Assembly (NCBI GenBank): GCA_029961745.1 | Contig: CP124680.1 | Coordinates: forward strand, 1,612,001 to 1,676,000 | Direction of reading: 5' to 3' | Length of the DNA stretch: 64,000 nt | Source: Nocardioides sp. L-11A | Lineage (GTDB): Bacteria > Actinomycetota > Actinomycetes > Propionibacteriales > Nocardioidaceae | In this document: positions 59,097-64,000 of the stretch, one piece after another | Position numbering within the stretch: position 1 is the first letter of the stretch | Layout of the letters: each line of letters opens with the position of its first letter | The notes under the pieces: generated by a model | The model's database searches: none | Told to the model about the DNA's origin: nothing | What the model saw: the letters and a program-made list of their open reading frames with translations, nothing else | Translations under genes and position numbers: made by a program

Positions 59097-60617
59097 TCAC
59101 CAGGTGGAGACGACGGACTCCGGGACGTAGCCGTGGCGGACCCGCTGCGGGTGGTTGCCGACGGGGAGATAGGCGAGCTCCTCGCGGGTGTCCGTGGACA
59201 GCACGGCGACGGCGTCGTCGTCCGACAAGGACACCCAGCAGGTCTCGTTGAGACCCTCGGTCGTCCAGTACGGCTTGCCGTACCCGTGACCCGTCGTCGT
59301 CTCGTCGAAGTACGTCGCCTCGCCGGTCGCGGCATCCACCAGCGCGGCGTAGTCGTCCATGGTGCCGGCGGCGCACAGGGTCTCGCCGTCGGCGCTGATC
59401 GACAGCCCGTGGTGGGCGGAGTCGTTGACATAGGCCTCGCGGAGCATGCCGGGGACCCGGTTCTCCAGCTGGACGACGTCGACCACGGCGCCCGTGGCGG
59501 GCTCCGAGATCCCGCCGAGGGCGTAGTCGCTGGTGCCGTCGAGGTCGGCCGCCTCGGTGTCGAAGACGACGTAGCCGTGCAGGAAGGAGACCTGGAGGTA
59601 GAGCAGGCGTCCGTTGGGGTGCACCGCGACCGGCCGCACCGCGCCGCTCATGCCGGGATGCCCGGCCTCCGCGAGCTCGTGGGCCATGTCCCAGCGCTCG
59701 AGCACCTCGAAGTCGTCGGCCGCGACGTACTGCAGCCAGCGGTCGCCCTTGACGGCCTTCTCCAGCTCGGCCCACGGCAGCCGCCCGAGCAGCCGGTCCA
59801 GGCCGAGGAGGTTGAGCGCGAGCCGGTTGAGGGGCAGGCCGAGGAGCTCGCCGTCGCGCGGGTCGAGGTCGTCGAGGGGCGTGTAGACGCGACCGATGGA
59901 CGCGTGCAGGATGCGCTCGCCGTCCTCGGTGTAGTTGCTCTCGTGGGGCGTCTCGCCCGAGGGGAAGGTGCGCAGTCGGTCGCCGAGCCGGACCACCCTC
60001 CCGCCGGGGAGCGTCTCGTCGACCATGGAGTACTCGATCACCTGGCGCTTGGTCGAGTCGGACACGAGCAGCCGGCGTCCGTCGTTGGAGACCTGCATGT
60101 GGTCGGTGCGGAAGCCGTCCATCTGCTGCTCGCGCACGATCGAGTCGGTCCGCCCCGCCGTCGCCTTGGCGATGTCGATCCACACCACGTCGGCGAAGCT
60201 GGGCCGGGAGACGGCGAGGTACTTCCCGTCCATCGTCGTGAACATGTCGTCGACGTACTGGTTGTGCCCCTGGCCCGGGCCGGCGTTGATGGCGAGGTAG
60301 AACACCGTCGCGACCGGGTCCTTGAAGATGTCCAGCGTCTCCTGGGTCTTGTCCGGGATCAGGTTGACCCCGCGCTTGAGCACCTCTAGGGATTCGGCGT
60401 CGACGATGCTCGCCGTCCCGTCCCAGTTGTTGCCGACCCACATCACCGAGCGGAGTCCGGGGTCGGCCGGACGGACGGCGATCGGCAGGTCGAGGGCGTC
60501 GTCCGGCGGCACCTCGTGCTCGGTGACCCGGACGTCGCCGCAGGCCGCGACGGCGGCGACGGCGATGCTGCCGAGGGTGGCGGTGAGGACGCGGGCGAAC
60601 CGGGAGGGCGTGCGCAT
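59097..60617 (-). CDS. YncE-like beta-propeller lipoprotein
   Basis: A 506-residue lipoprotein with lipobox VAAC at Cys26. The body is built of repeated propeller strands (GNNWDGTASIVDAESLEVLK, MDGKYLAVSRPSFADVVWID, NDGRRLLVSDSTKRQVIEY, and LSDDDAVAVLSTDTREELAY near the end), as in YncE and other YVTN-type proteins. Several conserved His and Glu residues (HMQVSNDG, HESNYTEDGE, SAHHGLSIS) could bind a metal. No enzyme activity can be assigned. Confidence 0.78.
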   Translation of the reverse strand: MRTPSRFARVLTATLGSIAVAAVAACGDVRVTEHEVPPDDALDLPIAVRPADPGLRSVMWVGNNWDGTASIVDAESLEVLKRGVNLIPDKTQETLDIFKDPVATVFYLAINAGPGQGHNQYVDDMFTTMDGKYLAVSRPSFADVVWIDIAKATAGRTDSIVREQQMDGFRTDHMQVSNDGRRLLVSDSTKRQVIEYSMVDETLPGGRVVRLGDRLRTFPSGETPHESNYTEDGERILHASIGRVYTPLDDLDPRDGELLGLPLNRLALNLLGLDRLLGRLPWAELEKAVKGDRWLQYVAADDFEVLERWDMAHELAEAGHPGMSGAVRPVAVHPNGRLLYLQVSFLHGYVVFDTEAADLDGTSDYALGGISEPATGAVVDVVQLENRVPGMLREAYVNDSAHHGLSISADGETLCAAGTMDDYAALVDAATGEATYFDETTTGHGYGKPYWTTEGLNETCWVSLSDDDAVAVLSTDTREELAYLPVGNHPQRVRHGYVPESVVSTW

Positions 60618-61205: not shown

Positions 61206-62039
61206 CTACACCTTCGCCAGGATCCCCGCGTCGACGGGCAGGGCCACGCCGGTGATGTAGCGCGCCTCGTCGGAGGCGAGGAAGAGGACCGCGTTGGCGA
61301 CGTCGCTCGACTCGACCCAGGGGACCGGGAGTGCGTTGGTCGCGGTGGACACCTCGACGATGTCGTCGCGTCCGGGCGCCGCCAGGTCGGGCCGGAACAT
61401 CCGGAAGATCTCGTCGTTCATGATCATCGGGGTGTCGACCTGGGTGGGATGCACGCTGTTGACGCGGATCCAGTGCGGCGCCAGCTCGTTCGCGAAGGTC
61501 CGCATCAGGCCCGTCACGCCGTGCTTGGCCGCCACATAGTGGGCGAGGTTGGGCGTGCCCTGGAGTCCGGCGGCCGAGCTGGTCAGCACGATCGAGCCGC
61601 CCCGTCCGCCCGCGACGAGGTGCGGGACCGCCGCTTTGACGGTGTGCCAGGTGCCGGTCAGGTTGATGTCGATCATCTCCTGCCAGGCGGCCTCGGTGAT
61701 CTCGTGGCCGGGCGCATAGCTGGCGATGCCGGCGTTGGCCACGACGATGTCGAGCCCGCCGAGCGCGTCGATGCCGGCCGCCAGCTCTCGGGCGAGCCGG
61801 TCGAAGTCGCGGACGTCGACCTGGGCCGCGTGCGCGCGGCCGCCGGCCGCGCGCACCAGCGCACAGGTCTCCTCGAGATCCTCCGGCGTCGCCATGGGAT
61901 AGGTCACCGAGGCGACCGGAGCACAGATGTCGAAGGCGATGATCGACGCGCCCTCCTCGGCCAGCCGGACCGCGTGGGCGCGGCCCTGGCCGCGGCCGGC
62001 ACCGGTGATGAGTGCGATCTTCTGGGTGACACGGCCCAT
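61206..62039 (-). CDS. Mycofactocin-coupled type SDR oxidoreductase
   Basis: A 277-residue SDR with [20 protein letters not shown] and a FDICAP stretch, an insert after it ([19 protein letters not shown]), the Ser in [18 protein letters not shown], and the end [17 protein letters not shown]. The GRGQGRAHA start and the insert match the mycofactocin-dependent SDR subfamily, which holds NAD tightly and passes electrons to mycofactocin. AGGAGG precedes the ATG. It follows the ligase-TetR fusion gene by 51 nt on the same strand. Confidence 0.87.
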
Positions 62040-62090: not shown

Positions 62091-64000
62091 TCAGTGGAGC
62101 CCGACGATCGCCTCGGCGATCGAGAGGTAGCGGTCGAGCAGCGGGTCGAAGCTCAGCGGTGCGTCGGGGCGGTACCAGGTCGCCACGCCGGCACACATCG
62201 ACGCGATCGCTCGGCCCGCGTCGCCGGGGTAGGGCGTGTGGAACACGCCGGCGCCGACACCGCGCTCGATGATCTGGTCGAGCAGGGCCTGCAGCTCGTC
62301 GCGCCGGTCGAGGTACTTGCGCCGGTTGCCGGACTCGAGGCTCCGCAGCTCGCTGGTGGACACGATGGCGCCCTTGCGGCGGTAGACGTGGAACAGCAGC
62401 ATGCTCGACACGAGGGCGTCGAACTGGGCGCGCGGGTCGTCGTCCGCCTGCGCCACCGCGAACCGGCTGCGCTCGACCAGCTCGTCGACGATGACCATCA
62501 TCAGGTCGAAGAGGATGTCCTGCTTCGCCTTGTAGTGGTGGTAGATGCCCGGCACCGACAGGCCGGAGCGGTCGGCGAGCTGACGGGTCGTGGTGCCGTG
62601 GTAGCCCTTCTCGGCGAACACGTCGAGCGCGGCGGCGAGGACCCGGGGCAGATCCTGCTCGTGATAGATCCGCCAGTCCTCGTAGGTGTCGGTCGGCAGC
62701 ACCGTCGTGGCGGTCGCGGAGGCGCCGTTGCGCTTGCGGGCGAAGTCGATCAACCACTGCAGAGCGTCGACGTCGTCGACGGCCCCGGTGCTGGTGACCC
62801 GGCGCGGCGAGGTGCCCTGCAGCATCCTCTTGACCGGCACCTCCAGGCGCTTGCCGGTGCGGGTGCGGGGCAGTGCGGGGGCGACGATGATCTCGTCCGG
62901 GACGTGCCGGCGGGAGGTTCGGCCCGCGATCGTCTCCACGATGCGGGTGCGCAGCGCGGCGTCGTCCTGCCCGTCCTCGGTCACCACGAACAGCGGCATC
63001 CAGTAGCCGCCCTCGGCGAGCTCGACCCCGACCACCAGGCTGTCGAGCACCTCGGGCAGGGACTCCAACGCCTCGTAGATCTCGGCGCTGCCCAGGCGCA
63101 CGCCGTTGCGGTTCAGCGTGGAGTCGGTGCGGCCGTGGATCATGATCGTGCCGCGCTCGGTGATCGTGATCGCGTCCCCGTGGCGCCAGACGCCGGGGAA
63201 GACGTCGAAGTACGCGTCGCGGTAGCGCTCGCCCTCGGGGTCGTCCCAGAAGGCGATCGGCATCGAGGGCATCGGCCGGGTGATCACCATCTCTCCGGTC
63301 TGACCGTCGGGCAGCCGGTCGCCCCGCTCGTCCCAGACCTCGAGGGCCACGCCCAGCGCGGTGCCGCTGATCTCCCCGTCGTAGACGGGGAGGTTGGGGG
63401 CGCTGGCGACGAAGATGCCGACGATGTCGGTGCCACCGCTCATCGAGCCGACCTGGAGGTCGGCGCGCACGTGGTCGCGGACCCAGTGGTTGCTGCTGGC
63501 CGGCAGGACCGAGCCGGTCACGCCGATCAGCTCGAGCGTGGACAGGTCGAGATCGCGGCCCGGCTCGAGCCCGTCGCGCGCGCACGCCTGGAGGTAGCCC
63601 GGGCTGGTGCCGAACACCGTGACGCCGAGGTCCTGGACGACGCGCCACAGCAGCCCGGTGTCGGGATGGGTCGGGCTGCCGTCGAAGAGCACGATCGTGG
63701 CGCCGTGGAGGAGGCCGCAGACCTGGGCGTTCCACATCATCCAGTTGGGCGTGGTGAACCAGAAGAAGACGTCGGCCTCGTCGACCCCCATGTGGAAGCC
63801 GGGGGACACCAGCTGCTCCAGGAGGGCACCGCCGTGCCCGTGCACGATGCCCTTGGGGCGCCCGGTGGTGCCGGAGGTGAACAGGACCCACAGTGGGTGG
63901 TCGAACGGGACGTCGAGCGGCGCCGCGACCGGCTTGCTGAACCGCTGGAGCTGCTCCCAGGCGACATCGCAGGGCGTGGTGTCGTCGCGGGCGACGCCGC
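62091..64000 (-). CDS. Acetoacetyl-CoA-synthetase-type ligase fused to a TetR regulator, 5' end cut by window
   Basis: One open frame covers 635 visible residues. The first part is the C-terminal two thirds of an acetoacetate-CoA ligase-type AMP-forming enzyme: P-loop FTSGTTGRPKG (near 63880), VFFWFTTPNWMMWNAQVCGL, SGGTDIVG, GRTDSTLNRNGVRLGSAEIY, and the catalytic lysine in PRTRTGKRLEVPVK (62850-62852). It ends naturally at about 62720. After a linker of about 20 residues a full TetR-type regulator follows from about 62675, with HTH TTTRQLADRSGLSVPGIYHH and a ligand-binding half of about 150 residues. No stop lies between. The only candidate internal start, a GTG at 62702, has no ribosome site. 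The N-terminal third of the ligase lies beyond base 64000. Confidence 0.85.
   Translation of the reverse strand, partial: GVARDDTTPCDVAWEQLQRFSKPVAAPLDVPFDHPLWVLFTSGTTGRPKGIVHGHGGALLEQLVSPGFHMGVDEADVFFWFTTPNWMMWNAQVCGLLHGATIVLFDGSPTHPDTGLLWRVVQDLGVTVFGTSPGYLQACARDGLEPGRDLDLSTLELIGVTGSVLPASSNHWVRDHVRADLQVGSMSGGTDIVGIFVASAPNLPVYDGEISGTALGVALEVWDERGDRLPDGQTGEMVITRPMPSMPIAFWDDPEGERYRDAYFDVFPGVWRHGDAITITERGTIMIHGRTDSTLNRNGVRLGSAEIYEALESLPEVLDSLVVGVELAEGGYWMPLFVVTEDGQDDAALRTRIVETIAGRTSRRHVPDEIIVAPALPRTRTGKRLEVPVKRMLQGTSPRRVTSTGAVDDVDALQWLIDFARKRNGASATATTVLPTDTYEDWRIYHEQDLPRVLAAALDVFAEKGYHGTTTRQLADRSGLSVPGIYHHYKAKQDILFDLMMVIVDELVERSRFAVAQADDDPRAQFDALVSSMLLFHVYRRKGAIVSTSELRSLESGNRRKYLDRRDELQALLDQIIERGVGAGVFHTPYPGDAGRAIASMCAGVATWYRPDAPLSFDPLLDRYLSIAEAIVGLH

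Follow-up and report, generated by a model that had tools for sequence, protein, structure and literature searches.

The question raised by this locus is whether a single gene of the soil actinobacterium Nocardioides sp. L-11A that appears to encode both an acyl-CoA ligase and a TetR-type repressor is real, and what the union of the two might achieve. The gene lies at the end of the 64,000-nucleotide stretch that we analysed (the window; positions 1,612,001 to 1,676,000 of contig CP124680.1, or C1:1612001-1676000 of genome G000), part of one complete 5.68-Mb chromosome. A preliminary description, drawn from the window alone, had proposed an in-frame fusion of a ligase of the acetoacetyl-CoA synthetase (AACS) type with an intact TetR protein, and both the domain profiles and the presence of the same architecture in many genomes bear this out. 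Judged by its sequence, one protein is both an acyl-CoA ligase-type enzyme and a DNA-binding-type regulator; to the earlier account we can add that the protein starts outside the window and that the fusion also occurs in other genomes. The parts of the gene, in window coordinates and in residues of the longer predicted product, are as follows.

62091..64000, minus strand: in-window part of the fused gene (AACS-type acyl-CoA ligase plus TetR repressor)
62730..64000, minus strand: ligase part, ending at residue 671 of 883; the window covers about residues 249-671
63849..63878, minus strand: TSGTTGRPKG, residues 289-298, 7 of 10 columns invariant in 27 fusions
62850..62852, minus strand: Lys631 in TRTGK, invariant in the 27 fusions
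62682..62729, minus strand: linker, residues 672-687 (about 16 residues), variable in sequence
Residues 690-883: complete TetR repressor part
62508..62639, minus strand: TetR_N helix-turn-helix, residues 702-745 (Pfam PF00440)
62115..62444, minus strand: TetR_C_24 ligand-binding domain, residues 767-876 (Pfam PF17932)

The stop codon of the fused gene occupies 62091-62093 and the frame stays open through the window end; the start lies beyond it, either at 64742 (an ATG that overlaps the permease stop as ATGA) or at 64694 (a GTG accompanied by a purine-rich site), giving a protein of 883 or 867 amino acids, respectively. In four of the five nearest relatives (P0002-P0006) the start column falls at residue 17, the second of these starts, and in the remaining one further upstream. 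On the 883-residue protein Pfam places ACAS_N (57-109), AMP-binding (119-490, 182 bits), AMP-binding_C (556-631), TetR_N (54.1 bits against a cut-off of 24) and TetR_C_24 (83.3 bits against 26.4) in that order, each above its cut-off, and the last two put the C-terminal half in the TetR family. The ligase half matches the acetoacetate-CoA ligase models TIGR01217 (684 bits against 520.9; residues 22-671, model positions 6-651 of 652) and NF002937 (800.2 bits against 639; residues 20-671, positions 5-655 of 657). Since the TIGR01217 match reaches position 651 of 652, the join lies at the natural end of the ligase, just as first proposed.

Profiles and motifs alike indicate a full-length enzyme of the acetoacetate-CoA ligase type with its core motif residues intact, for which activity on acetoacetate is a prediction. 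In TSGTTGRPKG, which we take to be the phosphate-binding loop, the invariant columns are S290, G291, T292, G294, P296, K297 and G298, and Lys631 is presumably the catalytic lysine expected of ANL ligases. Across the same 27 fusions the core residues G291, T292, K297, T438, D439, D523, R538 and K631, whose roles we assume from general knowledge of such enzymes, do not vary. The closest solved structure is the S. lividans AACS (4wd1), an acetoacetate-CoA ligase from which the fusion differs by its C-terminal TetR part. The same genome encodes another AACS-type ligase (C1:4601934-4603862, L010), which lacks a TetR part and is 55% identical, next to open reading frames that by eye resemble an amino-acid-type ATP-binding cassette (ABC) importer.

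The same architecture was sought by comparing residues 640-883 with about 5.8 billion proteins, of which the 7,996 candidates sharing most words were scored. The 26 matches to the join and TetR region, each a protein cluster, are all 864-894 amino acids long, share the five Pfam domains (one lists a sixth, PF17935) and are 52-92% identical over 99-100% of the query. Lone TetRs could not be returned by this search because candidate length goes by the whole protein. Where names are given, the matches are called acetoacetate--CoA ligase of Nocardioides and Aeromicrobium, or acetoacetyl-CoA synthetase, meaning that proteins with such a plain name carry an unremarked repressor. At the DNA level the whole fusion stands in one open frame in 5 of 145 genomes (G000, G014, G086, G038 and G047, our own included); in an even draw of 391 genomes of the order, again including our own, 32 have the TetR at E <= 1e-40 and five of these have the fusion (G000, G086, G403, G304 and G400; G403 and G304 hold loci L062 and L067). 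Fused DNA was read in ten different genomes altogether, and the nearest named relatives of the fused gene are in Nocardioides and Pimelobacter. In G215 and G249 a long open frame precedes a TetR homologue; these frames were considered as further fusions and rejected as spurious by codon-position GC content. The possibility that an assembly or sequencing error created the join, which the preliminary description had named as fatal to its proposal, has a negligible probability and is ruled out by these independent genomes and the 26 clusters of like architecture.

Both halves are under purifying selection: measured against five Nocardioides-type fusions, the ligase has a ratio of nonsynonymous to synonymous substitution rates (dN/dS) of 0.085-0.136 and the TetR part one of 0.009-0.126, while the linker (16-17 codons) is looser, at 0.17-0.51 in the four of five comparisons where it was measurable. 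We found no description of such a ligase-TetR fusion by title and abstract opening in a literature set that excluded most subscription journals, and the accessible part of the N. simplex transcriptome paper (PMC7807495) holds nothing on the fused gene.

Where did the fusion come from? Scanning genome contigs for TetR relatives yielded 339 confirmed stretches, and we retained the 80 best loci. Six of these are fused (L058-L062 of Nocardioides/Pimelobacter and L067 of Aeromicrobium ginsengisoli), six others (L063-L066, L068 and L069) have ligase and TetR as separate neighbours on the same strand, and in the remaining 68 no ligase of at least 40% identity over 200 residues adjoins the TetR within the stretch fetched; in L105 and L115 such a ligase stands about 6-7 kb off on the other strand. 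The split pairs are tightly packed: the TetR start overlaps the ligase stop by 4 nucleotides (ATGA) in L065, L066 and L068, a GTG lies 1 nucleotide past the stop in L069, and an ATG lies 69 nucleotides beyond it in L063 and L064, the latter with another at 3 nucleotides. That the two proteins are normally encoded by separate genes, as had been stated, holds true, and in these six loci the two genes share one operon. Because relatives carry both parts as separate neighbouring genes, the fusion looks real and selected, and we infer that it arose when two co-operonic genes were joined. All ligase-TetR pairs fall into one clade in both gene trees, within which the fusions form two clades, of 11 and 22 rows if near-copies are counted. 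On the concatenated data the best tree calls for two state changes; a single fused clade has a p value of 0.172 in the approximately unbiased (AU) test and appears in 12% of bootstrap trees. These trees neither establish nor reject a single origin, and there may have been one or two events.

The operon in which the gene stands is equally conserved. In the nine distinct fused genomes with a long enough contig the order is FAD monooxygenase, binding protein, ABC ATPase, permease and ligase-TetR (in G014, loci L041/L059, the contig stops just upstream of the ATPase), and split loci have the identical upstream order where the contig permits. A first comparison, of our own locus with five relatives, showed a perfect palindrome, ACCGAGCG-NN-CGCTCGGT, at the head of this operon in all six; on its 5' side is a conserved GTGTGACGTGTGCAACACT-like stretch. 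In our genome it reads as follows.

Genome 1681869-1681886 (69869-69886 in window numbering): palindrome ACCGAGCGATCGCTCGGT
Operon head: longer form of the palindrome, 24 bp, CCGACCGAGCGATCGCTCGGTCGG

This site, the only one within 1 mismatch in the genome, precedes the monooxygenase gene, which starts with GTG, by about 40 bp, and the fused gene begins about 5 kb downstream of the site. When the first 20 of the 80 loci were examined with 1 mismatch allowed, the palindrome was present in 17: five of the six fused, five of the six split and seven of the eight ligase-free loci. Forty controls with shuffled half-sites matched 0.025 loci on average and never more than 1. In two of the three loci that lack the palindrome, L059 and L068, a contig end truncates the sequence; the third is L076. 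Fused loci and most split loci carry the palindrome at the operon head; it stands after the TetR gene, at or just before a dehydrogenase gene, in ligase-free loci and in L064, whose contig begins inside the operon. The Aeromicrobium-type genome L140 has it as well, as do 14 of 60 more distant loci, which suggests a core shared in a wider TetR group, and G014 has an exact copy on a contig other than that of its fusion. Since the 1-mismatch pattern occurs in 77 of 145 genomes as background, the argument rests on position and on exact or near-exact sites. On this comparative evidence the palindrome is the probable operator of the TetR part, and DNA binding by that half, which the preliminary description had read from the domain, is well supported.

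Further copies of the palindrome were seen among the relatives. L063 has both sites, the second an exact palindrome (L063:8697-8714) in the called start region of its acyl-CoA dehydrogenase gene; a single TetR may thus act on two promoters in this locus, and the dehydrogenase gene probably starts further on than called. In nine loci with a lone TetR relative (L070-L075, L077, L047 and L048) the following genes encode an acyl-CoA dehydrogenase and an APH-type kinase, and the palindrome recurs with 0-2 mismatches at the dehydrogenase gene or immediately ahead of it, perhaps a wider regulon for the use of 4-hydroxyacyl-CoAs.

What the TetR half might sense was approached through its fold. The AlphaFold2 (AF2) model of the whole protein, made for relative P0005 (pLDDT 73, pTM 0.63, 26 sequences), is too weak to place the two halves against each other, and as its structure comparison covered only residues 1-655 we folded the TetR half alone, using 48 rows (one from the window and 47 from the set of 80 loci), with a pLDDT of 95. 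The closest folds are 3him, which ranks first, AibR with isovaleryl-CoA, PfmR and KstR2; the c-di-AMP regulator DarR is also close, and FadR and Fad35R rank lower down. None of the named TetR equivalogs (FadR of Bacillus, FasR, BetI and others) reached its NCBIfam cut-off, the best scores being 61.9 against 250 for NF050111 and 54.6 against 200 for FadR. By eye the recognition region is LSVPGIYHHY, and its letters are nearly identical in fused and separate TetRs.

We favor, though with some reserve, a model in which the fusion acts as a trigger enzyme in a single chain: it would repress the operon for uptake and activation to which its own gene belongs, and an acyl-CoA, probably the one that it makes itself, would release it. 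The TetR half would dimerise and bind the palindrome just before the first gene, holding the monooxygenase, the importer (binding protein, ATPase and permease), the ligase-TetR and a downstream short-chain dehydrogenase/reductase (SDR) low when substrate is absent. An entering acid, probably a short keto- or hydroxy-acid, would be converted to its CoA thioester by the ligase half; the thioester, or a derivative made from it, would fill the TetR_C_24 pocket and release the repressor, thereby inducing the genes that take up and activate the acid. Joined in one chain, enzyme and sensor would be fixed at a ratio of 1:1, and the sensor would lie beside the source of its signal. The parts of this model differ in strength. 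Repression of the operon through the palindrome is very likely given the conserved site; an acyl-CoA effector is a reasonably good bet, acyl-CoA-responsive AibR and KstR2 being among the nearest folds; and the chances that the effector is the enzyme's own product are about even. The nature of the acid is hinted at by analogy, because the kinase-dehydrogenase pair beside split and lone TetRs resembles enzymes for 4-hydroxyacyl-CoAs; the hint is weakened by the fused loci, which do not have the pair next door. More speculatively, the product might be transferred inside the dimer to the pocket of the tethered TetR, or the catalytic state might be relayed to it. We regard this as doubtful, but it would account for the union of ligase and repressor, which may have come about twice independently, and the operon would then report turnover of one enzyme and not the cell pool of a common CoA ester.

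It is also conceivable, if rather unlikely, that the fusion is real yet functionally uncoupled: a small change at the stop would have merged two neighbouring genes whose translation was coupled, and the repressor would still work its operator while sensing an upstream substrate or a later intermediate, with the ligase half outside the signalling. Several observations fit this idea: (i) the ATGA overlap in three of the six split loci, where a small indel could yield a fusion; (ii) the retention of the same palindrome by ligase-free TetR relatives and (iii) the variable linker, modelled with very low confidence in P0005 (pLDDT <50 at its residues 658-680). It sits less well with the persistence of the fusion in two clades, P0001 being only 57-60% identical to the second, and with the fact that the 80 TetR loci showed no separated copy within either fused clade, a weak point given that the protein search by design would miss such copies.

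The cell might also contain two proteins, through cleavage in the linker or an internal start that also yields free TetR, which seems improbable. The linker is loose (by one measure it spans 17-21 residues in those 26 fusions, out of 27, that a script could measure), which would permit cleavage, but no conserved cleavage motif is apparent by eye in the alignment of the 27 fusions. The preliminary description had seen no internal start with a ribosome site. Several in-frame ATG, GTG or TTG codons lie between the ligase motif TGK and the TetR start; the only one common to the seven fused genes compared, the GTG of ligase motif EVP, has 3-4 of 6 Shine-Dalgarno matches, whereas two unshared codons reach 5 of 6, in L059 and L062.

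There is precedent for the trigger enzyme that we favor. PMC8249747 lists BirA, NadR, PepA, PutA and PyrH as trigger enzymes, PutA repressing putA/putP. PutA, NadR and BirA of E. coli likewise combine enzyme and repressor in one chain that controls its own pathway, PutA also controlling an uptake gene; the fusion differs in pairing an AMP-forming acyl-CoA ligase with a TetR that has a separate ligand domain of its own. BirA is a ligase whose adenylate is the corepressor. The general kind is known and the pair is new; architecture, conservation and palindrome were found at the level of sequence, and enzyme activity and regulation are predicted. KstR2 and FadD3 of steroid ring catabolism are separate proteins, with a ligase of another subfamily. 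The KstR2 operator differs from our palindrome. AibR, an isovaleryl-CoA-responsive TetR by the title of its PDB entry (5k7h), is also a separate protein and 20% identical. The dehydrogenase and kinase beside TetR relatives and split loci resemble LvaC and LvaA (and ACAD10-ACAD11), enzymes for 4-hydroxyacyl-CoAs described in PMC11342911. LvaE groups with medium-chain ligases (PMC6692424), in contrast to the AACS-type ligase here, and the fused loci also differ in their neighbours, as noted above. Sister genomes that keep the halves separate in the same operon offer a natural experiment on what fusion adds, and with an operator predicted the question of regulation is directly testable.

The gene next to the fusion had been suggested as its particular regulated partner.

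61206..62039, minus strand: mycofactocin-coupled SDR, next gene downstream (TIGR03971, 407.8 bits, cut-off 300)

It is probably in the same operon, and follows the fusion in seven of eight Nocardioides-type genomes (exception L044) and in neither of the two Aeromicrobium-type genomes whose DNA was read (L067 and L140). Because it is missing after some fusions while the palindrome heads the operon, the suggestion is weakened, and we take the SDR for a co-operonic extra. Its class is supported by the score above and by a mycofactocin maturase MftC in the same genome (C1:518112-519155; TIGR03962, 624 against 265 bits), consistent with coupling to mycofactocin; none of 14 control genomes exceeded that cut-off.

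Downstream of the split pairs we found an acyl-CoA dehydrogenase and an APH-type kinase (L063, L064 and L066) or the kinase alone (L065, L068 and L069), and the order TetR, dehydrogenase, kinase holds in nine of ten ligase-free loci compared (exception L076). Near a fusion such genes were seen only in L060/L042, with weak matches (35% for the dehydrogenase, 45% for the kinase) about 6-8 kb off on the other strand; the best match to the dehydrogenase in our own genome is 40%. An Rfam search of the 18-kb region gave no match at gathering cut-offs. The first gene of the operon (L009:12062-13828, outside the window) encodes a flavin monooxygenase with a long N-terminal part, without a Pfam match, before the FAD domain. 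Finally, window positions 59097-60617 encode a 506-amino-acid protein that, of all the loci compared, only G000, G014 and L058 have near the operon.
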